In this document: positions 4,996-46,260 of the stretch, piece by piece
How positions within the stretch are numbered: the stretch's first letter is position 1
Layout: each line of letters begins with the position of its first letter
Assembly: GCA_002796835.1 (NCBI GenBank)
Contig: LUGL01000076.1
Coordinates: 5,675 to 61,937 of the forward strand
Direction: 5' to 3'
From: Elainella saxicola E1
Lineage (GTDB): Bacteria > Cyanobacteriota > Cyanobacteriia > Elainellales > Elainellaceae
DNA: 56,263 nucleotides
The notes under the pieces: model-generated
What the model saw: the letters and a program-made list of their open reading frames with translations, nothing else
Database searches by the model: none
What the model was told of the DNA's origin: nothing
Program-made: the position numbers and the translations under genes

Positions 4996-6390
4996 TCAAT
5001 TGACCTGGGCAAAACGATCGCAGTTTGCAATAAACCGGGCAGGCAATTCCGGACAGGCTCCCCAATGCAAATGAACATAGGAAGCTTGCAGCGCATGTTG
5101 CTGCCACCCTTCTCGCTGCCCCGGAATCGGCCCATCATAGCCCTGAAGATGGTAAAACGGCGTGGCAGGAGGCGTCACCAAAGTCGAACGATGGAATTCA
5201 TGGCCCCAAACGATCGTTCCAGCAGGCATCAGCGGACTGTCTTGTTGCGCGATCGCCCGTCGATAGCCCAAGGTCAACCGCTGCCCCATTTGGGAGGTTG
5301 TGGGCAAAACCCCTATCATCTGCCAGGCTTTCCCTGCAAAATCAATCAGCGATTCTGTTAAATACATCAGGCCCCCACATTCGCCATAGGTCGGCATTCC
5401 AGCCAAAATGGCCGATCGCACCGCCTGTTGAGCCGATTGATTAGCCGCCAGCTCTGCTGCAAACATTTCTGGAAAACCACCGCCAAAATAGAGGCCACTC
5501 ACGCCTTCTGGCAAACTTGTCGCTGTCAGAGGACTCCAGAAAACTAGCTCTGCCCCCAGGGACTCCAACAAATCCCAATTATCGGCATAGTAAAAACTGA
5601 ATGCTTGATCGTAAGCCACCGCAATTCGAGGACGGCTCCTCAGTTTCGGCAACCTGGACTGGGTTATCGATCGAGAGGGTGGATCTGAATTATTGGTCAG
5701 AGTACTCGCTACCCCATCATTCTTGAGTAAGGGTAAAATTCTTGTCCAATCAAATGTCTGCTCACCCAGCGTTGCCAGACGATCGAGCAGTTCGGTCAAT
5801 TCGCTCAGTTCGGCAGTGGGCACGAGGCCGAGATGCCGATCGGGAATGGTGATGTTATCCTGTCGGCGCAGCACGCCCAGAATCGGTAACTCCAAGGGTT
5901 GCAAAGCTGCTTTCAACAAATCTAAATGACGATCGCTGCCCACCCGATTCAAGACGATTCCAGCAAACCGGAGGCGGGGATCAAAGGAACAATAGCCATG
6001 CACCACTGCTGCGATCGATCGAGACAGCCGACTACAGTCCACCACCAGCAAGATGGGCAAATTCAGCAACCGAGCCACATGGGCTGTACTGGCCCAATCG
6101 TCTGCTCCTGTTGCACCATCAAACAAACCCATGACACCCTCAACCAGGGTATATTCTGCCGTTGAGTGCTGGTTGAAACAATGCTGAACATAGGCTTCAG
6201 AAGTTAAAACCGGATCCAAATTACGGCACGATCGGCCTGTCACAACCGTGTGAAACATGGGATCGATATAGTCTGGACCCACTTTGAAGGATTGGACAGA
6301 AGACTGCCAGCGACGCAAAGACGAAAGTAAGGCGAGGGTCACTGTGGTTTTACCAACCCCACTTCTTTCTCCAGCAATTAATAGGGGCAT
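4996..6390 (-). CDS. cbiA: Cobyrinate a,c-diamide synthase (CobB/CbiA)
   Basis: A 464-residue ATP- and glutamine-dependent amidotransferase of cobalamin biosynthesis. The N-terminal half carries the P-loop ERSGVGKTT, FKVGPDYIDP and VEGVMGLFDG. The C-terminal half is a class I glutaminase domain with the nucleophile region PTYGECGGLMYL and the final HLHWGACPE. Length fits the family. The ATG at 6388-6390 (MPLLIAGERSG) is preferred to a GTG 12 bp upstream because the P-loop normally follows within a few residues. The gene is divergent from galE. No other corrin gene is adjacent, as is common in cyanobacteria, where the pathway is scattered. Confidence 0.92.
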   Translation of the reverse strand: MPLLIAGERSGVGKTTVTLALLSSLRRWQSSVQSFKVGPDYIDPMFHTVVTGRSCRNLDPVLTSEAYVQHCFNQHSTAEYTLVEGVMGLFDGATGADDWASTAHVARLLNLPILLVVDCSRLSRSIAAVVHGYCSFDPRLRFAGIVLNRVGSDRHLDLLKAALQPLELPILGVLRRQDNITIPDRHLGLVPTAELSELTELLDRLATLGEQTFDWTRILPLLKNDGVASTLTNNSDPPSRSITQSRLPKLRSRPRIAVAYDQAFSFYYADNWDLLESLGAELVFWSPLTATSLPEGVSGLYFGGGFPEMFAAELAANQSAQQAVRSAILAGMPTYGECGGLMYLTESLIDFAGKAWQMIGVLPTTSQMGQRLTLGYRRAIAQQDSPLMPAGTIVWGHEFHRSTLVTPPATPFYHLQGYDGPIPGQREGWQQHALQASYVHLHWGACPELPARFIANCDRFAQVN

Positions 6391-33441: not shown

Positions 33442-34503
33442 CTAGGGGAGACGATCGCCCGTTTGGGGATCAAACCAGTGCAGCGACTCAGCCGGTAAAA
33501 CCAAGCTGATGTTTTTCTCTCCCCAAGATTGATCGGGAGAGAGGAGCGCTCGTAGCCCGATCGAAGTACCTTCAACCTGAACGCTGAGTAAATCACTCAT
33601 GCCTAAATTTTCCACCAGCATGACTTGTCCCTGAAGGGTCGAAGTTTCTCCGGGGCGCGCTAACCGCACATGCTCAGGCCGAATTCCTAAAATCACTTCA
33701 GGCAAGCGAATGCGATCGGGCAGGGGGATTGGATAACGCCCTAACATGGCGCAATTCTGGTCACACTTAAGCGGCAGCAAATTCATCTGGGGACTGCCGA
33801 TAAATCCTGCAACAAAGCGATTGGCGGGTCGAGTGTAGATGCGTTTGGGAGAATCTAACTGTTGTAAATAGCCATCGTTGAGGACGGCCACCCTGGTCGA
33901 GAGGGTCATGGCTTCCGTCTGGTCATGGGTGACATAAACGATCGGAGCATTTTGATCGCTAAAAATTTGCTTCAGTTCAGCTCGAACCTGCTCTCGCAGC
34001 AAGGCATCCAGGTTACTCAGCGGCTCATCGAGCAAAAACACATCCGGACGCCGCACTAAAGCCCGCGCTAGGGCAACCCGCTGCCGTTGTCCACCGGAAA
34101 GCTGTCCCGGTTTGCGTTTCAGTAACCCATCTAAGCCTAGAAAGCGGTTCACTTCCTCAATGCGCTGGCGGATTTCGCTGGCTGGCATTCGCCGCAGTTT
34201 CAAGCCTGATGCGATGTTGTCATACACCGTCATGTGAGGATAAAGGGCATAACTTTGAAACACCATGGCAATATTGCGGTCGCCCGGTGCCTGTTCGGTG
34301 ACATTGCGATCGCCAATCCAAATCTCGCCGCGTGTGGGTTGTTCCAGACCTGCAATCAGTCTTAAAGTCGTAGACTTACCGCAACCTGATGGTCCTAATA
34401 GGGTGAGAAATTCACCATCCTGCACGTCTAGACTGAGGTCTTTCAACGGCACGACCTGCGGATTATAGGTTTTGTTGAGGGCACGAAGTTTGAGTTGAGC
34501 CAC
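33442..34503 (-). CDS. Sugar ABC transporter ATPase (MalK/UgpC type)
   Basis: A 353-residue ATPase. Walker A GPSGCGKST, Q-loop FQSYALYPHMTV, signature LSGGQRQRVALARAL, Walker B VFLLDEPLSNLD and the switch His in VTHDQTEAM are intact. A C-terminal regulatory TOBE/OB domain has ILGIRPEHV. It powers uptake of a sugar or compatible solute with the two permeases upstream. The start codon is GTG. It is separated from the second permease by 97 bp that hold a dispersed palindrome (34532-34576), unlike the tight spacing of the other genes. Confidence 0.92.
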   Translation of the reverse strand: MAQLKLRALNKTYNPQVVPLKDLSLDVQDGEFLTLLGPSGCGKSTTLRLIAGLEQPTRGEIWIGDRNVTEQAPGDRNIAMVFQSYALYPHMTVYDNIASGLKLRRMPASEIRQRIEEVNRFLGLDGLLKRKPGQLSGGQRQRVALARALVRRPDVFLLDEPLSNLDALLREQVRAELKQIFSDQNAPIVYVTHDQTEAMTLSTRVAVLNDGYLQQLDSPKRIYTRPANRFVAGFIGSPQMNLLPLKCDQNCAMLGRYPIPLPDRIRLPEVILGIRPEHVRLARPGETSTLQGQVMLVENLGMSDLLSVQVEGTSIGLRALLSPDQSWGEKNISLVLPAESLHWFDPQTGDRLP

Positions 34504-34531
34504 GGTTCAATCAGTGTTGAATTTTGTTTTG

Positions 34532-34576
34532 AGTGCGAGCGTCTCGCTCGCGGCGGGCAGGACGCCTGCACCACAG
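34532..34576. repeat. Dispersed palindromic element, copy 2
   Basis: The reverse-orientation counterpart of 19439-19479: AGTGCGAGCGTCTCGCTCG is followed by GGCGGGCAGGACGCC. It sits inside the ABC operon between the permease and ATPase genes, where it could form an RNA hairpin that adjusts relative expression. Confidence 0.6.
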
Positions 34577-34600
34577 GTATTTTGTTTTCTAGAAAGCGCC

Positions 34601-35464
34601 TTAGCCCTTAACTGCGCCTGCGGTAAGTCCCTGTACGATCCGCTGTTGAAAGATTAGCAACAGCAAGACGAGGGGGAGTGTACCAATTACCGTTGCGGCG
34701 GCAAGTGCACCATAGGGGATCTCGAAAACGGCGGTGCCGCTGAGTTGGGCCACTGCAACAGGAATGGTTTTCATCGATTCGCGGGTAATGAAAGTGAGGG
34801 CAAACAGAAATTCATTCCAGGCCGCAATGAAGGTTAGGATGCCAGTTGTGACCAAAGCGGGCAATGTGAGCGGCATCAGAATTTGCAGCAGCATTTGGAC
34901 AGTGCTGTAACCATCGACCTTCGCTGAATCTTCCAAATCGCGCGGCAATTGCTGGAAAAAGCTGCGCATCACCAGAATGGTCAGAGGCACGTTCATTGCC
35001 GTGTAGGGGACAATCAGGGCTAGATAGTGGTTGGCTAACCCAAAGGTCCGCACCAGTTCCAGGAGGCCCAGAAATAGCAGAATATAGGGAAACAGAGTGA
35101 CGATCAGCGTTGCGGCTAAAACGATTTGTTCACCGGGAAGTTTGAGACGGGCTAGCGCATAGGCAGCAGGTGTGCCGATCAGCAGACAGAGCAGCGTAGA
35201 AGTAATCGCTACAAAGCCACTGTTAAACATGTATCTCAGAAAAGGCTGCCGTCGAAAGATTTCGGTGTAATGTTCGATCGTCAATTGTTTGGGAAAGTAG
35301 ACATTGGGAATTGCTGCAATATCGGCGGTTGTTTTGAATGAGGTCAAGAGCTGCCAAAGGATCGGCGCGAGGCTAAAGATAAGAATTAACAGGATGACGA
35401 TCGCCAATCCAATCCTGCGGGTTGAAAGTGCATGAGTCGAAGCCTGGGAGGAGCTGTTTGTCAT
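34601..35464 (-). CDS. Sugar ABC transporter permease (MalG type)
   Basis: A 287-residue inner-membrane permease with six predicted helices. The conserved EAA loop reads DLEDSAKVDGYSTVQMLLQILMPLTLPAL. The first helix follows a Ser/Thr-rich N-terminus. The ATG at 35462-35464 overlaps the stop of the preceding permease as ATGA, with AGGAG 7 nt upstream, so the two subunits are translationally coupled. An upstream TTG is too close to that site. Confidence 0.9.
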   Translation of the reverse strand: MTNSSSQASTHALSTRRIGLAIVILLILIFSLAPILWQLLTSFKTTADIAAIPNVYFPKQLTIEHYTEIFRRQPFLRYMFNSGFVAITSTLLCLLIGTPAAYALARLKLPGEQIVLAATLIVTLFPYILLFLGLLELVRTFGLANHYLALIVPYTAMNVPLTILVMRSFFQQLPRDLEDSAKVDGYSTVQMLLQILMPLTLPALVTTGILTFIAAWNEFLFALTFITRESMKTIPVAVAQLSGTAVFEIPYGALAAATVIGTLPLVLLLLIFQQRIVQGLTAGAVKG

Positions 35465-36363
35465 CGCCAATCTCCTGCAGGACGAAGTTTAGATAACCAG
35501 AAGGCTGCGATCGCCACTGCTAAGCTCAGAATCAGGAATGTGACGACAACCAGGGCGGCACCGTAACCGAAATCGAGATAGCGCATGATCGTGGCGTAGA
35601 TGTAAATGGAAACGGTTTCAGTCGCCCCACCAGGTCCACCTCCTGTCATTACCTGAATCAGGTCGAAAATGCCAAAGGCCTGGGCGAATCGGAATAGGGT
35701 GGCAATCAAAATTTGCGGCATCAGCAACGGCAGCGTAATCCGGTAAAAGTTTTGCCAGGGGCTGGCTCCATCCAGGGTATGCGCTTCATACAGATCATTT
35801 GGAATGGCTTGCAAACCAGCCAGCAGCAGAATGGCGATAAATGGCGTTGTTTTCCAAACATCTGCTGCAATCACGGTCCAGAGTGCCCAATGTGGATCAC
35901 CCAGCCAGTTGATGCCCGTTTTGATCAGGCCAGCCCGCATCAGTAAGTCATTCCACACGCCAAACTGATCATTAAAGATCCAGGTCCAGGTGGTGGCAAT
36001 TAAGGCGGTGGGCAATGCCCAGGGTAACAGCGCGATCGTCCTGACCGCTCCGCGACCTCGAAAAGACTGGTTCAGCACTAGCGCGGTCCCTAAGCCCAGC
36101 AGCAGTTCCAACAGTACGGAAATTGCGGTGAATAGGGTTGTATTGCCAATGCTCTGCCAGAAGCGACCATCGATCGCCATACGGCCATAGTTATTCAATC
36201 CTGTAAAAACGGGCTGCAATTCAGTGCCCAAATTTTGGGTGAACAAGCTCAGCCAAAACGATCGCCCGATCGGATAAGCATAGACCAACAAGAGCAAAAT
36301 TACGGCGGGAGCCAATAGCCACCACCCTGTCTGTCGTTCTTGATCGCGTAAGGTTTTGCTCAT
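35461..36363 (-). CDS. Sugar ABC transporter permease (MalF type)
   Basis: A 300-residue permease with about six helices and the EAA loop DLYEAHTLDGASPWQNFYRITLPLL. A typical partner motif is FDLIQVMTGGGPGGATETVS. It forms the channel with the MalG-type subunit encoded next. It begins 55 bp after the binding-protein gene in the same leftward operon. The set resembles GgtBCD-type uptake of glucosylglycerol, sucrose or trehalose in cyanobacteria, but the substrate is not determined here. Confidence 0.9.
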   Translation of the reverse strand: MSKTLRDQERQTGWWLLAPAVILLLLVYAYPIGRSFWLSLFTQNLGTELQPVFTGLNNYGRMAIDGRFWQSIGNTTLFTAISVLLELLLGLGTALVLNQSFRGRGAVRTIALLPWALPTALIATTWTWIFNDQFGVWNDLLMRAGLIKTGINWLGDPHWALWTVIAADVWKTTPFIAILLLAGLQAIPNDLYEAHTLDGASPWQNFYRITLPLLMPQILIATLFRFAQAFGIFDLIQVMTGGGPGGATETVSIYIYATIMRYLDFGYGAALVVVTFLILSLAVAIAAFWLSKLRPAGDWR

Positions 36364-36418
36364 GGGCGAAGAGGAAGTGGGGTGGGGTGGGGACTGAGTA
36401 ATGAGGCTGGGCGCGGAG

Positions 36419-37717
36419 TTATTCCTGGGCGAGTAATGCTCTGGTTTCTCTGGCTGCGGCTTGCAGGGCGGCTTCTGGACTCATTCGATCGGTAATGGCG
36501 GCACTGAGATATCGCTGTAGAATATCCGAAGCTTGGGCATATTGGGCGATCGGAGGACGCAACACGGCATTGTCGATCACGCTCATCATGCCGGAGAAGT
36601 AGGGATATTTAGTCAGAATGGCAGGATCGGCATAGAGCGATCGACGGGTGGGCAGGTAGCCATTTTCTAGAATGGACAGGCGTTGGGCATCAGGACTGGC
36701 ATAGAACTGAGCAACTCGCAGCGCTGCATCAGGATGGGCAGTCGTTTTAGTGATGCCAATGCCCCATCCTCCCAAACAAGCAGCACTCGTTAAGCCCGGT
36801 TGGTGCACCATCAGCTTGATGTCGAACTTGCCTTTAATCGGCGAATCTTCTGCATTACTCAACGGATAGGCGTAGGGCCAGTTGTGCATGAAGGCGACTT
36901 CTCCACCCTGGAATAACCGACGGGCATCTTCATGTTGATAGTTGGTGACGCCGGGAGGTGAAATGCCAGATGTGACTGTATCGCGCAGAAACTGAAGGGC
37001 TGCAATTGCTTCTGGATGATCGAGCCCCACTTCGCGATCGGTTGGATTAACCCAAAAACCACCAAAGCCTGCCAAAATATCGACAAAAACAGCTGCCAAC
37101 CCCTCAAACTGGCGACCTTGCCAAACATAACCCCATTTAGAGATGCCTGCACTTTGCAGCAGCTTAGAGGCAGCCATCAACTGATCGAAGGTGTCTGGGG
37201 GCTGAATGCCTGCTTGCTGCAACCAGTCTTTGCGATAGTACAAAAGCTGAGCGTCCGATCGCACAGGTAAACGGTACAACCTGCCGTCATAGCGTCCGCC
37301 TTCCAGATCCGCCGTCATGAAGTCAGCCAGGTCATTGGCCGGAATCCGATCGGTCAAGTCGAGCAACCAGCCTGCTGCAGCAAACTTAGGCAGCCAAACA
37401 ACATCCATCATCACCAGGTCGTAGGGAGAGTCGCCTAACAAAAACGAAGAGGTGTAGAGGTCTTCAATCAGATTGGAGGCGTTGGGCCCTTCGACCACAT
37501 CAATTTTGATGTCAGGATTCTGCGCTTCAAAAGCGGCAACCAAGCTTTGCCCCTGAGCTGCATCCAATGCCGAGGTCAGCATGGATAAATGAATGGGCTG
37601 CTGAGATAAAGCTATTTTTCCCCAGAGGAGAATGCAGCAGCAGCAGGTAATCGTAAGTGCTACAAAGCGCAGGTAGGGCAACCGTTCGGTTCGAAATAGG
37701 TGCAGAACAGTGAACAT
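36419..37717 (-). CDS. Extracellular sugar-binding protein of ABC transporter
   Basis: A 432-residue family 1 solute-binding protein. A signal segment (about residues 18-38) contains four consecutive cysteines in TITCCCCILLWGKIA, which is unusual for a hydrophobic core. The mature part shows LVAAFEAQNPDIKIDVVEG, DLVMMDVVWLPKFAAAGWL, EVAFMHNWPYAY and AACLGGWGIGITK, as in maltose/trehalose-type binding proteins. It is the first gene of the four-gene operon. Whether a lipobox Cys is used for anchoring cannot be decided. Confidence 0.88.
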   Translation of the reverse strand: MFTVLHLFRTERLPYLRFVALTITCCCCILLWGKIALSQQPIHLSMLTSALDAAQGQSLVAAFEAQNPDIKIDVVEGPNASNLIEDLYTSSFLLGDSPYDLVMMDVVWLPKFAAAGWLLDLTDRIPANDLADFMTADLEGGRYDGRLYRLPVRSDAQLLYYRKDWLQQAGIQPPDTFDQLMAASKLLQSAGISKWGYVWQGRQFEGLAAVFVDILAGFGGFWVNPTDREVGLDHPEAIAALQFLRDTVTSGISPPGVTNYQHEDARRLFQGGEVAFMHNWPYAYPLSNAEDSPIKGKFDIKLMVHQPGLTSAACLGGWGIGITKTTAHPDAALRVAQFYASPDAQRLSILENGYLPTRRSLYADPAILTKYPYFSGMMSVIDNAVLRPPIAQYAQASDILQRYLSAAITDRMSPEAALQAAARETRALLAQE

Positions 37718-38237
37718 GAGGATATTGATCGTCCAGGCAGTTCTTGAATAAAGCGATCCTATTCAATTTTTAGCGTTTTATTTGTTAATGGTAAGAAAAT
37801 GAACGGCTATCAATTTTTTGTAATTAAATTTCTATTTTCGCGGTTTTTACCGCTTTTATTGAACTGAAAAATTTTACCTTGAGGAGGGATTAACAAAGCA
37901 ATCGCAGCACAAAAAGTCAGCCTTAAAGTCATTTGCTTGAGCAATTTAGGAAAGGCCTTGCAATCTCTATGTAGTTCCTCTAAAATTTCCCCAGACGAAG
38001 AAAAAATAAACAGGCGATCGCTACAAAAAATCTGCCAAAAAAACCTTGAATCGCTGCTAAATCAGGAACTAAATTACTGCCGCTATATGTAGCGTAAACA
38101 GAAAAGATTTGAGTTTAGGAAACTCTACTAATAGGAATTGGCCTAATTTATCAAGCCTCAAAATTAATTTTGGCAGCGGAAAATAGTACAAACATATATA
38201 GTCTCGAAGATTTAATTGTGCTAATCATAAAAAAGCA

Positions 38238-38312
38238 ATGGAAGAATTTAAATTTGAATTTCTTCCTGACGGGTATGCCGACCCTGTGAAGTCAGAAACA
38301 TCCAGGAATTAA
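38238..38312 (+). CDS. Possible 24-residue upstream peptide (leader ORF)
   Basis: ATG at 38238 opens a 24-codon frame (MEEFKFEFLPDGYADPVK then SETSRN) ending with TAA at 38310-38312. The stop falls inside the loop of the hairpin at 38301-38320. The arrangement resembles a translated leader controlling a downstream hairpin. The DNA around its last codons is also conserved upstream of the third paralogue, where a short GTG-initiated frame ends in the same hairpin. It could be coincidental. Confidence 0.3.
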   Translation: MEEFKFEFLPDGYADPVKSETSRN

Positions 38313-38350
38313 CCCCTGGAATTCTTACTCCTCATAGTGAATCTATGGGG
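38301..38350 (+). promoter_or_regulatory. Conserved 5' element, copy 1 (hairpin plus TAGTGAATCTATGGG box)
   Basis: TCCAGG at 38301-38306 pairs with CCTGGA at 38315-38320. About 15 nt later comes TAGTGAATCTATGGG, near 38335-38349. The same order recurs before the third paralogue at 39537-39612. It lies about 100 nt upstream of the first paralogue, so it is probably part of its 5' UTR. I do not recognise it as a known riboswitch class. Confidence 0.5.
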
Positions 38351-38446
38351 AACAGGACGAGATCAAGCTTCAAAAGATTCGATTTATTCGATTTGATTGA
38401 ACGCTTGAAATTGTTAAGTTAGTTTACCCTTCTCGAGGTCAAAGCT

Positions 38447-38740
38447 ATGGAGACCCTTGCATATCTCTATGATGCTCAAAACTATGAGCAGTCCGAAGAA
38501 CAAGAACTGAATCTCAGCGGTTTGAAAGCTGCTGCGCTTACAGGTCTGGCTGCCGCAGGTGTTAGCGCCGCTGGCGTATTCGGACAGGCAGATGTTGCTT
38601 CTGCCCACTACTACTACGGTGGTGGATATGGTGGTGGATACTACCGTCCGGTGTACTATCGCCCATCGTACTATCGTCCGGTGTACTATCCCCGCTACTA
38701 CTCCTATCCTGTTTACTACCGTCCTTGCTATTACTACTAA
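38447..38740 (+). CDS. Small exported Tyr/Arg/Pro repeat protein, paralogue 1
   Basis: A 97-residue protein. The N-terminal leader METLAYLYDAQNYEQSEEQ is followed by a helical, Ala/Gly-rich segment LSGLKAAALTGLAAAGVSAA and a signal-peptidase-like site VASA before His54. The predicted mature part is almost only Tyr, Gly, Arg, Pro and Val: GGGYGGGYYRPVYYRPSYY, then further YYRPV units. GAGG 8 nt before the ATG supports the start. It shares leader and flanks with the gene at 39723 and is followed by strong hairpins. Surface, sheath or cross-linking roles are inference; no modification enzyme is adjacent. Confidence 0.7.
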   Translation: METLAYLYDAQNYEQSEEQELNLSGLKAAALTGLAAAGVSAAGVFGQADVASAHYYYGGGYGGGYYRPVYYRPSYYRPVYYPRYYSYPVYYRPCYYY

Positions 38741-38762
38741 GTAGTGCAAAGTCGAGTAAACC

Positions 38763-38803
38763 GTTTCATTCAGATGAAACCATGTGATTCATTTGAATGA
38801 ATC
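38763..38803 (+). repeat. Two consecutive perfect hairpins after paralogue 1
   Basis: GTTTCAT/ATGAAAC (38763-38769 and 38774-38780, 4-nt loop) and GATTCATT/AATGAATC (38786-38793 and 38796-38803, 2-nt loop) stand side by side between the stop codon and the terminator. They may protect or process the transcript. Confidence 0.5.
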
Positions 38804-38829
38804 CAAAAAAGGTATATCAGAGACATCAA

Positions 38830-38863
38830 GGGCTTCGTCTTTTTGATAGGTGGGGCGAAGCCC
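38830..38863 (+). terminator. Hairpin terminator after paralogue 1
   Basis: GGGCTTCG at 38830-38837 pairs perfectly with CGAAGCCC at 38856-38863; a T-run lies in the loop. It is preceded by GGTATATCAGA. The same arrangement follows paralogue 3, so the terminator was duplicated with the gene. Confidence 0.6.
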
Positions 38864-38979
38864 ATCAACTTCTTTCCGTTTGAAACTTCAATTGAGACCT
38901 CTGTGTTGAAATTCAGAAGTGTTCATAACCCTTTGGAGTTTTGGATTGTCAAATTAAATTACCTTTTTGAGGACGTATG

Positions 38980-39297
38980 ATGGAAACTCTTACTGGTTCA
39001 CACCATGCCCTAGGAAGTGGGCGATCGAAAAAGAAAGCATCTGGTCTCGGTGGCTTTCAGGCTGTTACAGCTGTGGGTCTGATGACGACAGGAATGACGA
39101 TCGGGCTACTCGGGCTTGCGGTAGATTCTGCTGCAGCATGGGGTTGCCGGTCTGCTTGTGTTCCTGTGGTACGAGTCTGCCGGTCTGCTTGCGTTCCTGT
39201 AGTGCGGAGTTGTGGGTCTGCTTGTGTTCCTACCTATGCACGTCCTACCTACTATCCACGTTCCCGTCACGCCTATCCTACTTTCTATGGCTCTTAA
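38980..39297 (+). CDS. Small exported Cys/Arg/Pro repeat protein, paralogue 2
   Basis: A 105-residue protein with the same plan but diverged. The leader METLTGSHHALGSGRSKKK is followed by a hydrophobic helix (TAVGLMTTGMTIGLLGLAV) and a VDSAAA cleavage-like site. The mature part begins WGCRSACVPVVRV and repeats as CRSACVPVVRS and CGSACVPTYARPTYY. It has seven cysteines in repeat units, so disulphide pairing or metal binding is possible. The ATG at 38980, not the overlapping ATG at 38977, has the better spacing to GAGGA at 38969-38973 and aligns with METL of its paralogues. Confidence 0.65.
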   Translation: METLTGSHHALGSGRSKKKASGLGGFQAVTAVGLMTTGMTIGLLGLAVDSAAAWGCRSACVPVVRVCRSACVPVVRSCGSACVPTYARPTYYPRSRHAYPTFYGS

Positions 39298-39722
39298 AGA
39301 GTTTTATAATGTTTTCTCTAGCGGTTACTATGATATGATCGCTAACTAAGTTTAGGTCTCCTCAATTCGGTTTTCTTTCACTGAACTAGTTCTGACCCAG
39401 TATCAGTGTATTTCGTAGGGCTATACATTCCGACTGAATCAAATAGAAGTTTCTCTCAAAATTTCTATTGTTTCAGTTTTGTATTTCCCTATCCATCTAT
39501 TATTTAAGCTTCTTATTTCATTCAGTGAAAGAAGCGTCCAGGTTTATGCCTGGATAATTCAGTCTTGTAGTGAATCTACTTGTAGTGAATCTACTTGTAG
39601 TGGATCTATGGGTCTGTTCGACGAATTCAATCACAGAGCAATCGCTTGATCTTTGATGAAGTATTTGAAAGTGATTAATTTGTTGGAGTTGTTGAATCAG
39701 TCTACTTTTTTGAGGAAAAGCT
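39298..39722. promoter_or_regulatory. Structured leader region before paralogue 3
   Basis: A 425-bp region without a gene. TTCTTTCACTGAA at 39373-39385 is perfectly complementary to TTCAGTGAAAGAA at 39521-39533, enclosing 135 nt. The CCAGG/CCTGG hairpin (39537-39554) and a triple 15-bp repeat (39564-39608) follow. A long structured 5' UTR is likely. Confidence 0.45.
39537..39612 (+). promoter_or_regulatory. Conserved 5' element, copy 2, with amplified box
   Basis: TCCAGG at 39537-39542 pairs with CCTGGA at 39549-39554. The following box, single in copy 1, is present as three tandem 15-mers CTTGTAGTGAATCTA at 39564-39578, 39579-39593 and (one change) 39594-39608, ending TGGG. It lies about 110 nt before paralogue 3. 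Confidence 0.55.
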
Positions 39723-39995
39723 ATGGAAACCCTTGCTTATTTGTATGGTGCTGAAACCTACGAACAGCCTGAAGAGAAAGAACTGAATCTCAGTGGCTTG
39801 AAGGCTGCTGCAGTAACAGGTTTGGTTGCTGCTGGTGTTACCACCGCTGGCGTAGTTAGCCAAGCAGATTCTGCTTCTGCTCACTGCTGGGGTAGCTGCG
39901 GCGGTTGGCGTCCAGTTGTTTACCGTCCAGTTGTCTGGCGTCCAGTTTACTACCGTCCTTGCTGTCGTCCAGTTTACTACAATCCTTGCTGGTAG
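39723..39995 (+). CDS. Small exported Tyr/Trp/Cys/Arg/Pro repeat protein, paralogue 3
   Basis: A 90-residue protein. The leader METLAYLYGAETYEQPEEK and helix LSGLKAAAVTGLVAAGVTTA match paralogue 1 almost residue for residue. A DSASA cleavage-like site follows. The predicted mature part is HCWGSCGGWRPVVYRPVVW, then RPVYYRPCCRPVYYNPCW, so the YRPV repeat is kept but Trp and six Cys are added. GAGGA at 39712-39716 lies 6 nt before the ATG. Family and function are not recognised. Confidence 0.7.
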   Translation: METLAYLYGAETYEQPEEKELNLSGLKAAAVTGLVAAGVTTAGVVSQADSASAHCWGSCGGWRPVVYRPVVWRPVYYRPCCRPVYYNPCW

Positions 39996-40077
39996 GTAGG
40001 CGGTTGATTCTCCCGCTTGAATGGGATGAATTATTGACTAAGCTATGACGGCAAGTTGCGGGTATATCAGATAAGCT

Positions 40078-40110
40078 AGGGCTTCGTCTTCCACAAAAGG
40101 GACGGAGCCT
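40078..40110 (+). terminator. Hairpin terminator after paralogue 3
   Basis: AGGGCTTCGTC at 40078-40088 pairs with GACGGAGCCT at 40101-40110 (one wobble), again after GGTATATCAGA. It is homologous to the hairpin after paralogue 1. Confidence 0.6.
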
Positions 40111-40156
40111 TGTTGTTGAATATGGATTGAATGTTGAGGAGTTGTATTGGAGTAGA

Positions 40157-41167
40157 TTAGGTTGATTCGCCTGACTGAGTCGATGAGATATTTTCAACCA
40201 TTTCTTGTTTCAGATCGCGTTCCATTAGCGCTTCGACAGCTTGCTGTGGTGTGATTTTGCCGTTGAGCAGCAGATAAACTTGATGAGACACAGGAACAGC
40301 AATGCCTTTGCGATCGGCCAGTTCAATCAAAACATTGGTGGTGTTAACCCCTTCCGCTGTGCTTTGCAATTCCGTCAAGATCTGTTCCAGCGTTTTGCCT
40401 TGGGCTAAACCATATCCGACGCGATAATTGCGGCTGAGGGCACTCGTACAGGTTGCCAACAAATCGCCTAAGCCAGACAGGCCAAAAAAAGTTTCAGGTT
40501 TGCCGCCCAACTGCGTCCCTACACGAATAATTTCAGCTAAAGCGCGAGTAATTAAACCCGATCGCGCATTTGTGCCTAAATTTAAGCCATCGCAAACTCC
40601 GGCGGCGATCGCAATCACGTTCTTTAAAGTACCACCCAGCTCCGTCCCGAAAGGATCGGCATTGGTGTAAACCCGAAAGCGATCGGATGAAAGGGCAGCC
40701 TGAACCGCAGCAGCGGCTGCTCGATCGTGACTGGCGACAACGGTGGCGGCAGGTAAACCTGCTTGAATCTCTTCCGACAAATTGGGTCCAGAAAGTACCA
40801 CGATTGGATGGTTGGGGTAAGCGGCCTGCCAGAGCTGAGATGCGGTGAATTGAGTTGTTGAATCTAACCCTTTGGTGGCGCTAACAATAATCGTATCGGT
40901 AAGAAGCTGAACGGACTGGAGTCGGGCGATCGTTTCAGGAACGCCTTTGATCGACAGTGCAGAGACAATCATTGCAGCAGAATCAACTACTTCTGCTAAA
41001 GTGGCTTCACCTCGGCGTGACCATACCCGAACTTGATGCCCCCGTTTGCGAGCTAAGGTGGCTAAAGCTGAACCCCAGGCTCCTGTTCCCAAAATGGCGA
41101 TGGCGATCGGAGCGGGGATGGCATCCAGGTCAAGTTCGTTGGGTTGTGCTGAGGAAGAGACGTTCAC
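40157..41167 (-). CDS. gpsA: NAD(P)+ glycerol-3-phosphate dehydrogenase
   Basis: A 336-residue enzyme making sn-glycerol-3-phosphate for phospho- and glycolipid synthesis. The nucleotide-binding motif IAILGTGAWGSALA, the NADP-type VWSRR, SGPNLSEEI, the catalytic Lys in ELGGTLKNVIAIAAG and LSGLGDLLATC are all present. The start is uncertain: GTG at 41165-41167 is used here, a TTG 36 bp upstream is also in frame, and neither has a clear ribosome site. About 28 residues precede the Rossmann strand. Confidence 0.93.
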   Translation of the reverse strand: MNVSSSAQPNELDLDAIPAPIAIAILGTGAWGSALATLARKRGHQVRVWSRRGEATLAEVVDSAAMIVSALSIKGVPETIARLQSVQLLTDTIIVSATKGLDSTTQFTASQLWQAAYPNHPIVVLSGPNLSEEIQAGLPAATVVASHDRAAAAAVQAALSSDRFRVYTNADPFGTELGGTLKNVIAIAAGVCDGLNLGTNARSGLITRALAEIIRVGTQLGGKPETFFGLSGLGDLLATCTSALSRNYRVGYGLAQGKTLEQILTELQSTAEGVNTTNVLIELADRKGIAVPVSHQVYLLLNGKITPQQAVEALMERDLKQEMVENISSTQSGEST

Positions 41168-41557
41168 GATGAGGTAAACCAATTCTGCTAGAGGATGCAG
41201 CAAATCTTATTACGGCGTTTCACACAGCGCCCTTTGCTAAGGATTGTGGATGAAATAAAACCGCAAACTGTACGGGCGGGTTTGATAACCAATCACTGAT
41301 GGAATGGAGTCTTTTAGTAAACTCGCCCCTACCTAATTTTCGATCTACTGAAGATCGAAAATGAATTTGTTTTGATCATCATGCTTGTGTTCGATCCCCC
41401 TAAATCCCCCTTAAAAAGGGGGACTTAAAGACACTTTCGGCTCGGTTCCCCCTTTGTTAAGGGGGGCTAGGGGGGATCTCAGCAGGATCTGCGATCTACT
41501 GATCTTATTTAATTCTCATCCTTAAGTAGAGACTAGAGATGGCAGGGAGGCCAACCT
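41168..41557. other. Intergenic region packed with inverted repeats
   Basis: A 390-bp region between two leftward genes with no ORF of note. It contains three inverted repeats: 41270-41332, 41336-41362 and 41393-41478 (the last listed separately). The first pairs GTACGGGCGGGTTT with AAACTCGCCCCTAC (12 of 14). The second is the perfect hairpin ATTTTCGATC/GATCGAAAAT. Confidence 0.6.
41393..41478. repeat. C-run/G-run inverted repeat element, copy 1
   Basis: GATCCCCCTAAATCCCCC at the left is mirrored by GGGGGGCTAGGGGGGATC at the right, with internal AAAAAGGGGGA and TTCCCCCTTT. The element is flanked by an 11-bp direct repeat CGATCTACTGA at 41341-41351 and 41492-41502. This repeat type is widespread in cyanobacteria. 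A related element lies at 53763-53837. Confidence 0.6.
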
Positions 41558-43645
41558 CTAGGCCGCCAAACCATTATGCCGCAACAGGGCTGCCGTATTC
41601 GGCTCACGTCCTCGGAACGCCTCAAACACTTTCATGGGATGTTGGCTGCCGCCGAGTGCCAGCACCGTATCACGGAAACGATGGCCCACTTCAGCGATTT
41701 GCTGCTCATCTTCCAGCCCTGCTTCCTCAAAGGCTGCAAAAGCATCGGCACTCAGCACTTCTGCCCACTTGTAGCTGTAATAGCCTGCGGCATAGCCACC
41801 AGCAAAAATATGGCCAAAGGCGCAGAGAAAGGCATCTTCTTCTAGAGGTGGCAGGACCGTTGTTTTTTCGGCGATCCGACGCCGCACCTGCGCAGGTGTT
41901 TCGCCACCTCCCGGCTGATAGCGATGATGCAGTTCCAGATCTACCCAGCTAAAGTGAATTTGCCGCAACATGACGCTGCCACTCATATAGGTGCGAGCCG
42001 CGATCAGCTTTTGATAGTAATGTTCAGGCAGAGGCTCGCCTGTTTCGTAATGTTTGCCGAGGCTCAGCAATGTCGGACGGTGATAGCACCAGTTCTCCAT
42101 AAATTGGCTGGGTAGCTCGACTGCATCCCATTCCACATTACGAATGCCAGAAGCTCTGCCATCATCCACGCGCGTCAGCATATGTTGCAGACCATGGCCA
42201 AACTCATGGAACAAGGTTTCCACTTCACTGAAGGTCATCAAGCTGGGCTTGTCATCGACAGGGGGAGTTTGGTTGCAGATCAGATAGGCTACAGGTAGGC
42301 GGACTGATGATCCAGGTTTGCCGCTGACTCTGGCCCGTCCAATGCATTCATTCATCCAGGCTCCGCCCCGCTTCTCGGCTGGACGGCTGTAGGGATCGAG
42401 GTAGAAATGAGCGATCGGACTACCGGACAGATCGGCAACCTGGAAATAGCGGACATCGGGATGCCAAACCGGCGCTTCTCCATCAGCTGGCGTAATCACC
42501 ACGCCAAAAATTCGCTTCGAAAGATCAAATAAGCCCGTTAAAACTTGCTCCAGTGGAAAATAGGGGCGCAATTCTTCTGCATTAAAATCAAACTTCTCTT
42601 CGCGCTGCCGTTCTGACCAGAAGGAAATATCCCAGTGGGCTAGCGGTTCGGTTTCGCCTTTGGTTGCGGCATAAGCTTGCAGCGTTTCTAAATCTTGCTT
42701 GGCAGCATCATAGCTCGCTTGGCGCAGCTCTTCCAGCAGTTTTTCAACCGCCTCCACGCTAGGAGCCATCTTGGCAGCCAAACTCACTTCCGCATAGCTC
42801 TCGTAGCCCAATAGTTTTGCCTGCTCTTGCCGCAGTTCTAAAATTCGCTCAATCAGGGGTGTATTATCCCACTCGCCGCTAGAAGCTCGACTGATAAATA
42901 CGCGATAGAGTTTTTCTCGCAGATCGCGCCGGCGGCTGTGTTGCATAAAGGGGAAATAGCTTGGCATGTCCAACGTGATCCGCCAGGGGCCAGCTTCCGG
43001 AGTTGCTTTTTCTTCTCCTGCCGATCGCGCTGCTTGAGCGGCCAGTGCCACCAGACTGGGCGGTAAACCAGCAATTTCTTCTGGCTGAGTTAGGGTGAGA
43101 CTAAACGCTTTCGTGGCATCCAGAACATGATTGGAAAAGCGAGTCGAGAGTTCAGCTAGCTCTAACTGAATCGCGTTAAACCGCTCCTTTGCTTCCCCTT
43201 GTAAACCAACGCCCGACAATTCAGCATCTCGTAAAGCCGATTCAACAATGCGCTGTTGAGTTTCTGTTAAAGCGTCCCATGCTTCACTGTGGCGGAGTGC
43301 CTTAAAGCCCTCATAAATTGGCTGACTCTGGCTGAGGCGATTCCAGAACTTCACCACTTCGGGCTGCATCGTTTCGAAGGCTTGCCGCAGTTCGGGACTA
43401 TTTTTCACACCCATTAAGTGACCGACGATGCCCCAACTCCAAGACAGGCGCTCCTCGATCTGTTCCAGCGGCGTCACCAACCCTTCCCAGGTCGGAACCA
43501 GATTGGCTTCCAGCTGGCTGAGCTGTTTTTCCACGTCTTGCAAGAGTTCCGTGATGGCAGGAACGACCTGCTCTGGCAAAATTTGCTCAAAAGGAGGAAG
43601 TCCTGTCCCGATCAAAAGCGGATTGACCGCAGAAATTGTACTCAT
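41558..43645 (-). CDS. prlC: M3 family zinc oligopeptidase (oligopeptidase A type)
   Basis: A 695-residue thimet-type metallopeptidase. The zinc motif HEFGH is in VETLFHEFGHGLQHMLT, with the third ligand Glu in the next helix and YMSGSVMLRQIHFSWVDLE further on. The N-terminal helical half begins NPLLIGTGLPPFEQI, as in oligopeptidase A. It degrades short peptides, including released signal peptides, in the cytoplasm. The ATG at 43643-43645 is preferred to an extension of 18 residues that lacks conservation; the ribosome site is weak. Confidence 0.93.
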   Translation of the reverse strand: MSTISAVNPLLIGTGLPPFEQILPEQVVPAITELLQDVEKQLSQLEANLVPTWEGLVTPLEQIEERLSWSWGIVGHLMGVKNSPELRQAFETMQPEVVKFWNRLSQSQPIYEGFKALRHSEAWDALTETQQRIVESALRDAELSGVGLQGEAKERFNAIQLELAELSTRFSNHVLDATKAFSLTLTQPEEIAGLPPSLVALAAQAARSAGEEKATPEAGPWRITLDMPSYFPFMQHSRRRDLREKLYRVFISRASSGEWDNTPLIERILELRQEQAKLLGYESYAEVSLAAKMAPSVEAVEKLLEELRQASYDAAKQDLETLQAYAATKGETEPLAHWDISFWSERQREEKFDFNAEELRPYFPLEQVLTGLFDLSKRIFGVVITPADGEAPVWHPDVRYFQVADLSGSPIAHFYLDPYSRPAEKRGGAWMNECIGRARVSGKPGSSVRLPVAYLICNQTPPVDDKPSLMTFSEVETLFHEFGHGLQHMLTRVDDGRASGIRNVEWDAVELPSQFMENWCYHRPTLLSLGKHYETGEPLPEHYYQKLIAARTYMSGSVMLRQIHFSWVDLELHHRYQPGGGETPAQVRRRIAEKTTVLPPLEEDAFLCAFGHIFAGGYAAGYYSYKWAEVLSADAFAAFEEAGLEDEQQIAEVGHRFRDTVLALGGSQHPMKVFEAFRGREPNTAALLRHNGLAA

Positions 43646-43837
43646 AAAATGTCGCGTATTTAGTTCTAGGTCTCTCTTGTCCCACTTTAGCGCACGCATT
43701 CAAATGGCAAACCAGGGCAAAAGAAGGACGAAAGACGTAAATTTATAAGACAGTTTTACCAAAATTCGTCTGAACTACTCAAAAATTTGTATCATTGAAT
43801 ACAGAAATTTAGAAAACTCGCTTCAAGGGCTGGGGAA

Positions 43838-44089
43838 ATGAAGCAATACCTCAAGCCGCTGTCAGTCATCGAAGCACCAGACTCCAGCGTTGGCACTCGA
43901 TCGATCGGATTTCAAGGCGCATTGACCAATCAATGGGTGCAGTTGATTGCGCCACCCGAACCGATGGCTTATGAACAGGCGCTCTTGCTCTGCAAACAGT
44001 CCGATGATGAATGGCTGGCCTGGATTCCAGACCATGGCGAGATTATGCTGCATGTCAGCGAATTTTATAACGCACGGGACTGGAATTGA
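43838..44089 (+). CDS. Small conserved hypothetical protein
   Basis: An 83-residue soluble protein, acidic, with WVQLIAPPEPMAYEQALLLCKQSDDEWLAWIPDHGEIMLHVSEF. The pattern looks like a small cyanobacterial protein of unknown role; no motif of known function is seen. GGGGA stands just before the ATG. It converges with the membrane protein gene, with 2 bp between them. Confidence 0.6.
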   Translation: MKQYLKPLSVIEAPDSSVGTRSIGFQGALTNQWVQLIAPPEPMAYEQALLLCKQSDDEWLAWIPDHGEIMLHVSEFYNARDWN

Positions 44090-44091
44090 AG

Positions 44092-45519
44092 TTAGCGCTT
44101 GGCTTGAGATTGAGAAAGCATCGCAATGCTGTTGATCAAAGTCGCCATGAGCGGCAGCCAGCCAGTAGATTGGCGCTTTAAATAATCATCAAGCAGGGCA
44201 GCGATCGGGTTCAGATCGGTTTTGGCCCGGTGGATTCTACCAATTTTGGATTGCAACTCACTGGCTTGCTGTTGGTGCTGCTGGTAGAGCTGGATCGGAT
44301 CGAGACCAGGATAGGAGCCGCGCCGGATTTTTTGCGATTTCAGATTCGGAAACACCAGTTTGTTAGAAGTCGTGATCAGCAACGTGCCGTTGAAAAAGTG
44401 AGATAAAAACTCCAGGCTGACGACTGGTTCTGCATCTGATTGGTTACCAAGTTCAATCACCATGACGATGGCATAGAGATCTTTGTTGGGGTGAGCGTAG
44501 GGGTAGAGCAGAATTTTCGGCAACGTTGAGAGTTGCAAATCGCCTACCCAGGTCAGGCCGAGACGAGCCAATTGGCGATCGATCTCCTGGACTTTGGGTG
44601 GTGACAAAGCCGGAACTTTGGTTAACCCACTGGTCTGATAAGTGCCAAGCTGACCGGTATAGACGATCGTTCCTGATTCAGTCTGGTCTAATTGCGGTGA
44701 ATCGGGACGAACGGCTGAGAGGTTGAGAAAGTCCTGAATTTTTTCCTGAAGTTGCAGAGCCTCCTGGCGATTTCTGTTCTGGGCAAAGCTAATTTGCCTC
44801 ACCGCATCGGGCATCAGGATAGGCGCATAGGATTTGTTGCCATAGCTGTCGATGTGTTCCTTTACCTCAACGCGCTGAACAATGCCTAATGGATAATCGG
44901 ATCTGCGGGTGCCCAGCAGGGTCCAGACTTTATAGGTCAAACGATTCAGGCTTTTATCCAGAATCAAGGTTTGCGATCGGACAGTGGCATAAACCAAGCT
45001 AAATCCCACGAGCACAAACAGACTCAAAAATAAAATTGGCGCGATGGTTTGAGAAACATTCCAGCGATTATCGAGGCGGAGAGTCAGTTCCGCTTGTTGG
45101 GACTGCAAAAATTCGTTAGTGCGGTTCACCCAGATGGTGTTGGTGTTGGAGTCGGTGCTGAAAGGGGTGAGCTGCCATTCCCCTTGGGGACTGACAAGGA
45201 CCGATCGATAAACCTGATATGCTCCATCATCACTCTCGCGGGTTTCCTGCTGCAATTCAGCCCTGGTGACTTGAGGAATGGCGATCGGATGATCTGGTAC
45301 GATGCCCCAACCGTGAGATTTGCTGAGATGGCAATCCACCTGAGCTATTTCACTGCGACGGCAGGTCAACTGAGTGACGCCGCTATTTGCCACTGTGGCA
45401 ATAATCACCGCTAGCGGCATTCCGGCAAACAAACTGGCCCACAACAAAATAAACAGGATCAGGCCCGGTTGCTTTTGGTGCAACACCATGCGGGAAGGCG
45501 TTTGTTCGACGATTTTCAT
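44092..45519 (-). CDS. Two-helix membrane protein of unknown function
   Basis: A 475-residue protein. Transmembrane helices are predicted at about residues 18-44 (LILFILLWASLFAGMPLAVI) and 155-178 (IAPILFLSLFVLVGFSLVYA). The segment between them has four cysteines/aromatics and probably faces outside. A large soluble C-terminal half follows, with a beta-rich part (TLILDKSLNRLTYKVWTLLG) typical of PH-like membrane proteins. No enzymatic motif is recognised. It is leftward, 56 bp after the 53-residue membrane protein gene, and may be cotranscribed with it. Confidence 0.6.
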   Translation of the reverse strand: MKIVEQTPSRMVLHQKQPGLILFILLWASLFAGMPLAVIIATVANSGVTQLTCRRSEIAQVDCHLSKSHGWGIVPDHPIAIPQVTRAELQQETRESDDGAYQVYRSVLVSPQGEWQLTPFSTDSNTNTIWVNRTNEFLQSQQAELTLRLDNRWNVSQTIAPILFLSLFVLVGFSLVYATVRSQTLILDKSLNRLTYKVWTLLGTRRSDYPLGIVQRVEVKEHIDSYGNKSYAPILMPDAVRQISFAQNRNRQEALQLQEKIQDFLNLSAVRPDSPQLDQTESGTIVYTGQLGTYQTSGLTKVPALSPPKVQEIDRQLARLGLTWVGDLQLSTLPKILLYPYAHPNKDLYAIVMVIELGNQSDAEPVVSLEFLSHFFNGTLLITTSNKLVFPNLKSQKIRRGSYPGLDPIQLYQQHQQQASELQSKIGRIHRAKTDLNPIAALLDDYLKRQSTGWLPLMATLINSIAMLSQSQAKR

Positions 45520-45575
45520 AGCGATCGGTCAGCATCGAGGTGAGATAGCCTCAGTATTCCCGATCGCTGACAAGC

Positions 45576-45737
45576 TCACCCGAGATAGAGTCCCGGCCAG
45601 ATTAGCTCAGACAAATCCGTGGGCGCTGGAATCATTTCTCCACGCATATCCAGAAACTGCACGATTAACAAATAGGCCAAACTCAGGAGAATGGCGATCG
45701 CGCCAGTGACGACGGCAACAATTTTAGAACGGTCCAT
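45576..45737 (-). CDS. 53-residue single-helix membrane protein
   Basis: A short ORF: MDRSKIVAVVTGAIAILLS continues into LAYLLIVQFLDMRGEMIP and ends in APTDLSELIWPGLYLG. One transmembrane helix spans about residues 6-28, followed by a conserved-looking soluble tail. It lies between folB (divergent) and the two-helix membrane protein (codirectional). The frame, hydrophobic profile and position support a real small gene. Function is unknown. Confidence 0.6.
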   Translation of the reverse strand: MDRSKIVAVVTGAIAILLSLAYLLIVQFLDMRGEMIPAPTDLSELIWPGLYLG

Positions 45738-45803
45738 ATTGAATCAATTCACTCAACTTGCTGGTCAATTTGTTAGAAGTTTTCGATTGTTGGATCGATT
45801 TAA

Positions 45804-45869
45804 GGACGAAGCATCCGGTACTGTACTGTTGCAATTGAGTGATGAACTGTCGCCCAGATGCTTCGTCCC
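45804..45869. repeat. Inverted repeat upstream of folB
   Basis: GGACGAAGCATC at 45804-45815 is perfectly complementary to GATGCTTCGTCC at 45858-45869, with a 42-nt spacer, and ends 28 bp before the folB start. Another dispersed cyanobacterial repeat type, distinct from the elements at 19439 and 41393. Confidence 0.6.
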
Positions 45870-45897
45870 TACTTTGTATCAACTGTATCGTATGACT

Positions 45898-46260
45898 ATG
45901 GACTGCATGCACATTAACGGCATTCGTGCCTATGGCTACACAGGATTCTTGCCCGAAGAACAGGTTTTGGGGCAATGGTTTCAAGTTGATCTGACGCTTT
46001 GGCTAGATCTATCTATTGCGGGCAAGAGCGATCGCCTCGAAGAAACCTATGATTATTCCAAAATCGTGATGGCAGTAAAGCACTTGATCCAAACCATCAA
46101 ACCGAAACTGCTGGAAAGGCTGGCCGAAGAAATTGCCGTGTTGGTACTGACTTCGGACCAAATCACGCAGGTCAAGGTACGGCTCACGAAACTACAGCCG
46201 CCAATTCCCAACTTTGATGGGCATATCGTGCTGGAAATTACGCGCGATCGGCAGAACTAA
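45898..46260 (+). CDS. folB: Dihydroneopterin aldolase
   Basis: A 120-residue folate-pathway enzyme converting dihydroneopterin to hydroxymethyl-dihydropterin. It shows MHINGIRAYGYTGFLPEEQ (with the active-site Glu), QVLGQWFQVDLTLWLD, ETYDYSKIV, LLERLAEEIA and VKVRLTKLQPPIP. The ATG at 45898 gives the family length; frame-matched ATGs at 45892 and 45907 are alternatives. The in-frame ORF upstream to 45691 runs through an inverted repeat and is not coding in my view. Confidence 0.92.
   Translation: MDCMHINGIRAYGYTGFLPEEQVLGQWFQVDLTLWLDLSIAGKSDRLEETYDYSKIVMAVKHLIQTIKPKLLERLAEEIAVLVLTSDQITQVKVRLTKLQPPIPNFDGHIVLEITRDRQN

Follow-up and report, generated by a model that had tools for sequence, protein, structure and literature searches.

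In a textbook signal peptide, the N region is short, at about 5 residues, and carries a positive charge (PMC12341915). Two further papers (PMC5962339 and PMC11898559) describe the YSIRK/G-S signal peptides of Gram-positive bacteria, in which a motif inside the signal peptide of wall-attached surface proteins directs septal secretion. Autotransporters have unusually long signal sequences that include an additional N-terminal part (PMC2805444). Here, we analyze the N-terminal leader of three small predicted proteins of the cyanobacterium Elainella saxicola E1. The whole stretch of DNA under study (the window) spans 56,263 nucleotides (nt) (positions 5,675 to 61,937 of contig LUGL01000076.1, forward strand; GenBank accession no. 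GCA_002796835.1), and its source assembly comprises 8.7 Mb in 284 contigs. The open reading frames (ORFs) ORF1 (38447..38740), ORF2 (38980..39297), and ORF3 (39723..39995), all on the plus strand, encode predicted precursors of 97, 105, and 90 amino acids (aa), in which the leader precedes YYRPV repeats, CRSACVPVVR repeats, and WRPVVYRPV repeats with Trp and Cys, respectively. We give a probability of roughly 0.55 to the reading that small cell envelope proteins are made from the ORF1 and ORF3 precursors, and probably from that of ORF2, with the leader acting as an extended Sec signal peptide and the repeats placed in the wall or sheath.

A METL start, a hydrophobic stretch, and an AxA motif at residues 51 to 53 are common to the three ORFs. 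We built a hidden Markov model (HMM) from an alignment of 20 leaders (alignment A1), ORF1 and ORF3 included; the model matches these two, as members of its own 20 sequences, with E values of 7.2e-22 and 1.4e-22, respectively, and both have the acidic N-terminal block (N-block), the hydrophobic stretch, and the AxA. The N-block of ORF1, a conserved leader motif, takes up codons 1 to 16 (METLAYLYDAQNYEQS; 38447..38494, plus strand). The ORF1 leader covers residues 1 to 53 (38447..38605, plus strand), with presumed cleavage between ASA and H, and leaves a presumed mature part of 44 aa with Tyr/Pro/Arg repeats (38606..38737, plus strand). In ORF3, the leader also covers residues 1 to 53 (39723..39881, plus strand), again with presumed cleavage between ASA and H, followed by a presumed mature part of 37 aa (39882..39992, plus strand).

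The A1 model found matches in 32 of the 36 genomes of the family at E values of ≤0.01; some of these match the hydrophobic half only (G014:C484 and G040:C266), in genomes that also hold full matches. With a broader alignment of 30 leaders (A2), 112 of 388 genomes of the class and 65 of 157 genera matched at E values of ≤0.001, with scoring limited to 16 candidates in each genome. A draw across the phylum gave 49 matching genomes out of 291, all within the same class (the nonmatching genomes are only partly listed). Pattern scanning of named genomes confirmed 13 loci out of 56 pattern matches, among them Elainella, Phormidium tenue, Phormidesmis priestleyi, Trichocoleus, Symplocastrum, and a Coleofasciculus metagenome-assembled genome. 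The tally of the ORF3 search (12 of 40) includes stop-interrupted matches (G027, G028, and G032), which we treated as chance. For further counts, we extracted 175 leader proteins, keeping one for each distinct sequence of the first 60 residues; candidate frames whose aligned start lacked Met (or VE/LE) were excluded, uncounted, and two proteins shorter than 60 aa were dropped from later counts, leaving 173. Thirty diverse leaders scanned alone matched no Pfam family at E values of ≤0.01, and NCBIfam returned just three single-member matches to three unrelated models at chance level (E values of 0.0045 to 0.0081). Searches of open-access literature, from which many journals are absent, listed nothing describing the leader among papers on extended signal peptides, peptidoglycan (PG) binding/SH3 proteins, precursor sorting, or exoproteomes and nothing at all on a tyrosine-rich sheath.

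Domain scans considered the 160 leader proteins that had a stop codon and a length of 60 to 560 aa, and the best 150 by leader E value were scanned against Pfam and NCBIfam. The Pfam matches in these best 150 of the 175 were to PG_binding_1 (131), SH3_3 (54), PG_binding_2 (44), and SH3_4 (20). The leader stands in front of several PG_binding_1 units, of PG_binding_1 plus SH3, or of SH3 alone; in further layouts it is followed by a Tyr/Gly/Cys-rich spacer and PG_binding_1 or by short repeats alone. Leader-bearing proteins of about 120 to 750 aa are mostly of the PG-binding/SH3 type, and the short kind makes up 10 of the 173 (81 to 105 aa, ORF2 included). The AlphaFold model of a PG-binding relative was confident only at about residues 132 to 200. 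The leader constitutes a cyanobacterial family, widespread and apparently without a name, in which wall-binding-type proteins predominate. The window proteins appear in it as two certain members and one probable member, all domainless, and not as a private tandem family. The original prediction, which had been made on this DNA from its letters and ORF translations, had recognized no described family, and for the leader this still holds.

The closest comparison comes from the window genome itself. On its contig C144, two leader proteins, of 267 and 223 aa, have PG_binding_1 at their C-terminal end and are encoded between genes that we take to be HisG-like and HAD-phosphatase-like; the same locus is also occupied in the related genomes G002, which belongs to the genus of the window genome, and G017. 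The second C144 protein has CCQPVVYQPIVFRPVVIRP (RPVV-type repeats) directly after the leader. The PG-binding paralogue G000:C144:97894 (PG_binding_1 E value of 1.3e-17) aligns with ORF3 over residues 1 to 83, into the repeats (46%; E value of 2.5e-9). Since the second C144 protein aligns into the ORF3 repeats, the window proteins resemble the same leader with similar repeats but without the wall-binding domain. Cyanobacterial PG_binding_1/SH3 proteins (PF01471 and PF08239) thus share the leader by HMM, and one member in the window genome also aligns with ORF3 into the repeats, whereas the window proteins measure only 90 to 105 aa and have no wall-binding domain. Elainella sp. Prado103 encodes a 281-aa protein (L123:7904-8746) with the same kind of start (METLAYLELGQIYDE) and many QPIVQPI and CCTP repeats in its mature part, a further type of repeat alongside the leader genes; it gave no Pfam match at E values of ≤1e-5.

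The start consensus of the leader is M-E-(T/S/N)-(L/F)-A-(Y/F)-(L/I)-H-x-A-x-x-Y-E-(D)-(P), and its strict form fits 113 of the 173 leaders. Lys or Arg occurs within positions 2 to 15 in only six, and the mean number of Asp plus Glu there is 2.98. The median start of the best hydrophobic 14-mer is residue 38. After the hydrophobic stretch, A/VxA is present in 170 of the 173 and ends at median residue 57 (range, 37 to 81); 200 shuffles of the same segments gave 122 on average and never more than 136. Strict AxA was found in 160, against a shuffle mean of 94 and a maximum of 112, and both Ala columns reach 90% in an alignment of 150 full proteins. A hydrophobic core and then AxA is, by sequence, the order of a canonical Sec/signal peptidase I signal peptide, and the export-type leader of the original prediction is upheld to that extent. 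The short positive N region of such peptides is lacking: the leader is acidic and nearly free of Lys and Arg. No lipobox Cys occurred at residues 31 to 80 in any of the 173, as a lipoprotein would have, and RR, as in twin-arginine signals, occurred within the first 45 residues in one.

In six conserved-locus sequences, including ORF3, the ratio of nonsynonymous to synonymous differences per site (pN/pS) was 0.26 in codons 1 to 16, 0.18 in codons 17 to 26, 0.44 in the hydrophobic stretch, and 0.55 in the part before the presumed cleavage site. Because pN/pS is lowest in codons 1 to 16 and 17 to 26, the extra N-terminal part is, by this measure, the most protected part of the leader. The median hydrophobicity of the best 14-mer was 2.17 in the 173 leaders and 1.76 in the ten short proteins, compared with 2.84 in PsbO precursors, a comparison with one lumenal family (22 of the 25 fetched precursors used). 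A more hydrophobic, helical core is a reported correlate of lumenal location (PMC12341915). The core of the leader is weaker than that of PsbO, in the direction of periplasmic proteins, which is only suggestive. In 21 of the 22 PsbO precursors of relatives (L225 to L247), a lipobox-like LTAC closes the hydrophobic core.

By working principle, the YSIRK/G-S signal peptides come nearest to the leader, as both have a conserved signal peptide motif common to wall-type proteins. We rejected membership in that group, as SIRK is absent from the first 60 residues of all 173 leaders; the motif described here is acidic, lies at the extreme N terminus, and is cyanobacterial. The leader resembles the autotransporter type in being a long signal sequence with an extra N-terminal part. 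Signal sequences of the extended signal peptide region (ESPR) type begin MNK, whereas none of the 173 leaders does, and here a wall-binding or repeat protein follows. HxsA (TIGR03979) has a PG-binding domain at its end, as many leader proteins do, and 96 of the 150 match its model at E values of ≤0.001. Among 13 proteins scanned singly, three multi-PG proteins scored above the cutoff of 121.65 bits (140.5, 143.9, and 146.0), nine scored below it, and one was unmatched; two of the three also exceeded the spore_SleB cutoff. We take these crossings to be a repeat effect of summed PG units. The best-matching stretch was the C-terminal half (PG part) of the HxsA model in 12 of 12 matched proteins, and three tandem HxS units were found in none of the 175. 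Plant proline-rich wall proteins and extensins have short Tyr/Pro repeats and are exported to the wall; their likeness to the window proteins is an analogy of composition only.

The ORF1 and ORF3 proteins are 70% identical, and their start sites and leaders lie in a duplicated block of 172 nt on the plus strand (first copy, 38441..38612; second copy, 39717..39888; 80% identity). The ratio of nonsynonymous to synonymous substitution rates (dN/dS) between the two leaders was 0.18 (Nei-Gojobori counts), indicating purifying selection, and unsaturated leader comparisons among eight short proteins gave 0.09 to 0.26. In the mature part, pN was lower than pS in every pair compared. A GAGG-type (GAGGA-type) start context is present upstream of ORF1, ORF2, ORF3, four orthologues, and the two C144 relatives. 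Because of the shared block and the purifying selection, we conclude that ORF1 and ORF3, its tandem duplicate, are true paralogues that behave as translated frames; both belong to the leader family and have a signal-peptide-like core with AxA, in a leader common to wall-binding-type proteins. The original prediction had named two outcomes that would speak against it, a lack of same-leader homologues in related genomes and noncoding statistics; such homologues abound, and ORF1 and ORF3 look coding.

ORF2 is a weaker case. A protein search with ORF1 at E values of ≤10 failed to return it. Its best nonself match in the 36 family genomes had an E value of 5e-4, and it matched a short protein of G002 over residues 1 to 56 (43%; E value of 0.001). 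The leader HMM gave E values of 0.008 in the genome search and 7e-4 in the broader extraction, and the N region is basic (RSKKK), whereas that of the family is acidic. The start-site DNA of ORF2 resembles that of ORF1 and ORF3, so that the status of a diverged copy is plausible only; at best, ORF2 is probably a diverged third copy. A second in-frame ATG lies at 38977. The three METL frames with a hydrophobic stretch and AxA and the paralogy of ORF1 and ORF3 therefore stand as first proposed, and the equal rank given to ORF2 does not.

Four relatives (G001, G002, G003, and G017) have a short gene between the same two neighbors that enclose the window ORFs, namely, a divergent upstream gene for an ATP-binding cassette (ABC) transporter solute-binding protein (SBP_bac_1; 36419..37717, minus strand) and a convergent downstream gene for a GpsA-type glycerol-3-phosphate dehydrogenase (40157..41203, minus strand), both conserved synteny markers. 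The leader HMM gave a single match at this locus in each relative, and when the small ORFs of the gap were listed for G002 and G003, no second METL frame appeared. The triplet is unique to the window genome among the five genomes compared at the locus. With one copy at the locus in each of the four relatives, a single gene is probably the ancestral state, and ORF1 is, by synteny and dN/dS, the orthologue of that gene. The mature core of ORF1 (RPVYYPRYYSYPVYYRPC; RPVYYPRHYYAYPVYYRPC) differs little among G001, G002, and G003, and G017 retains part of it; ORF3 evidently drifted after the duplication. These comparisons, together with the low pN in the mature part, do not bear out a fast-changing mature region in the case of ORF1, nor a tandem family as the natural unit. 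Further short relatives in G006 and G014 sit outside the conserved locus.

In the reading that we prefer, the Sec translocon would export the leader-bearing precursors and signal peptidase I would cleave at AxA. The acidic N-block would stay on the cytoplasmic side and could time or steer export to the plasma membrane and wall. The Tyr/Pro/Arg/Cys repeats of 37 to 52 residues would then end up in the wall or sheath next to the PG-binding relatives, some of which have comparable repeats joined to a wall-binding domain, and would form an extended filler that is possibly tyrosine or disulfide cross-linked, like the plant proline-rich wall proteins. The leader is shared with many PG-binding and SH3 proteins and therefore indicates a link to the cell wall; of the structural, adhesive, or interaction peptides suggested originally, free adhesive or interacting ones fit less well. 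Several points weigh against our reading. The export, cleavage, and destination of the leader proteins are inferred from sequence. In segments as rich in Ala as these, AxA often arises by chance, which makes the motif alone weak, although its excess is real. As the 173 to 175 leaders were chosen by HMM, the conservation and composition of their N-block are partly circular, the six-sequence pN/pS values less so. AlphaFold prediction of ORF3 with four relatives was unusable (mean predicted local distance difference test score, 44.7). The window genome has 17 PG_binding_1 ORFs, just two of them with the leader, which therefore marks a subset and is no general tag of wall proteins. Lastly, the short forms have no wall-binding domain at all, and their retention in the wall is suggested by analogy only.

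A more specific and more tentative proposal is that the acidic N-block sorts proteins, as a cyanobacterial counterpart of YSIRK. It would direct Sec precursors to the plasma membrane (perhaps at the division septum of filaments) rather than to the thylakoid, and at the plasma membrane site the Tyr/Pro/Cys peptides would serve as wall or sheath blocks; we regard this as possible but doubtful. It is unlikely, in our view, that the hydrophobic stretch is instead an uncleaved signal anchor, with the acidic block as a cytoplasmic tail (e.g., a docking peptide) and the repeats as a membrane-tethered periplasmic tail. The strong constraint on the N-terminal part would be odd if that part were simply discarded, and both the length of the leaders (A/VxA ending at residues 37 to 81) and the chance frequency of AxA fit an anchor. 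Against it, the 170 A/VxA motifs exceed all 200 shuffles, the two Ala columns are conserved at 90%, and the stretch is rich in Ala and Gly and, with its median of 1.76 in the short proteins, weak for an anchor. The Cys/Tyr/His/Trp-rich mature parts might bind copper, iron, or similar metals in the periplasm as metal-binding or redox peptides, given the CCRP, CWGSC, and PCCRP motifs in ORF3 and relatives and the Cys repeats in ORF2. We consider this improbable: Cys is scarce in ORF1 and its orthologues, where Tyr, Pro, and Arg prevail, and no metal transporter or sensor was found among the eight flanking ORFs scanned (33442-46260), which encode a MalK-like ATPase, two permeases, the solute-binding protein, GpsA, a peptidase M3, FolB, and one unmatched product.

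The same eight ORFs bear on the idea that these are secreted signaling, antimicrobial, or ribosomally synthesized and posttranslationally modified peptides (RiPPs), whose leader would serve processing and export. Small size and a conserved leader with different mature parts in the three ORFs would suit such peptides, but neither a maturation enzyme nor a dedicated export gene is among the eight, in agreement with the earlier statement that a RiPP reading is not supported. The leader is also found on the far larger PG-binding/SH3 proteins, and the His-Xaa-Ser array is absent from all 175, so that we disfavor this explanation as very improbable. The remaining alternative is that the frames are spurious ORFs in a repeat-rich intergenic region, as their low-complexity mature parts and the overlapping ORFs on both strands might suggest. 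The leader dN/dS range, the GAGGA-type start context, and the conserved position in four other genomes refute it for ORF1 and ORF3. ORF2 has no close homologue for such a comparison. Overall, we give this alternative only the slightest probability.

HetR is associated with filamentous growth and was used here as a stand-in for it. HetR (PF18460) was found in 185 of the 388 class genomes. Taking the two draws of 388 to be the same genomes, as their shared handles suggest, 106 genomes had leader and HetR, 6 the leader alone, 79 HetR alone, and 197 neither (Fisher P = 5e-36, uncorrected for phylogeny or genome size); the count of 79 holds for E values of ≤0.001 and at most 16 scored candidates per genome. 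The six leader-positive genomes without a HetR match (G030, G191, G258, G283, G367, and G381) speak against a strict link to filaments. G258 and G381 match the hydrophobic half only, but G030, G283, and G367 have full leaders, and the link is therefore strong rather than strict. The window genome itself (G000) has two HetR_C matches.

The three ORF proteins gave nothing above the cutoffs of Pfam and NCBIfam, and we rejected matches to GLTT, keratin-like, and TraX models (E values of 0.07 to 0.08) as noise. Against solved structures, ORF3 had two matches, the best with an E value of only 0.64. An Rfam scan of 37700-40300 gave no match up to an E value of 1, and plasmid records gave no match to ORF1 or to a leader from another family. 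Upstream of ORF3, at 39564-39608, lie three head-to-tail 15-bp units (CTTGTAGTGAATCTA), and one related copy lies upstream of ORF1 (38331-38345), possibly a shared regulatory or slippage element. By eye, stretches 3' of ORF1 (38830-38863) and ORF3 (40079-40109) are alike and hairpin-like (GGGCTTCGTC...G(A/G)AGCC) and are perhaps duplicated terminators; a repeat search with a minimum length of 14 listed no inverted repeat for them. An M3 oligopeptidase gene (41558-43699) adjoins gpsA in the window, G001, G002, G003, and G017. The E. coli M3 enzyme PrlC acts on cleaved signal peptides, and by this analogy the neighborhood may not be idle.

The shared acidic leader may serve as an address label that directs proteins to the cell envelope. 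The sorting of cyanobacterial precursors between the periplasm and the thylakoid lumen is called elusive in PMC12341915, and a compact, conserved N-block on PG-binding-type proteins offers a defined, swappable candidate sorting signal. No Pfam or NCBIfam model matched the 30 diverse leaders as a group, and therefore annotation of these genes has to rely on a PG-binding or SH3 domain and fails where, as in the window proteins, that domain is missing. If our reading is true, the short Tyr/Pro/Cys forms would give cyanobacteria small peptides with a structural role in the wall.

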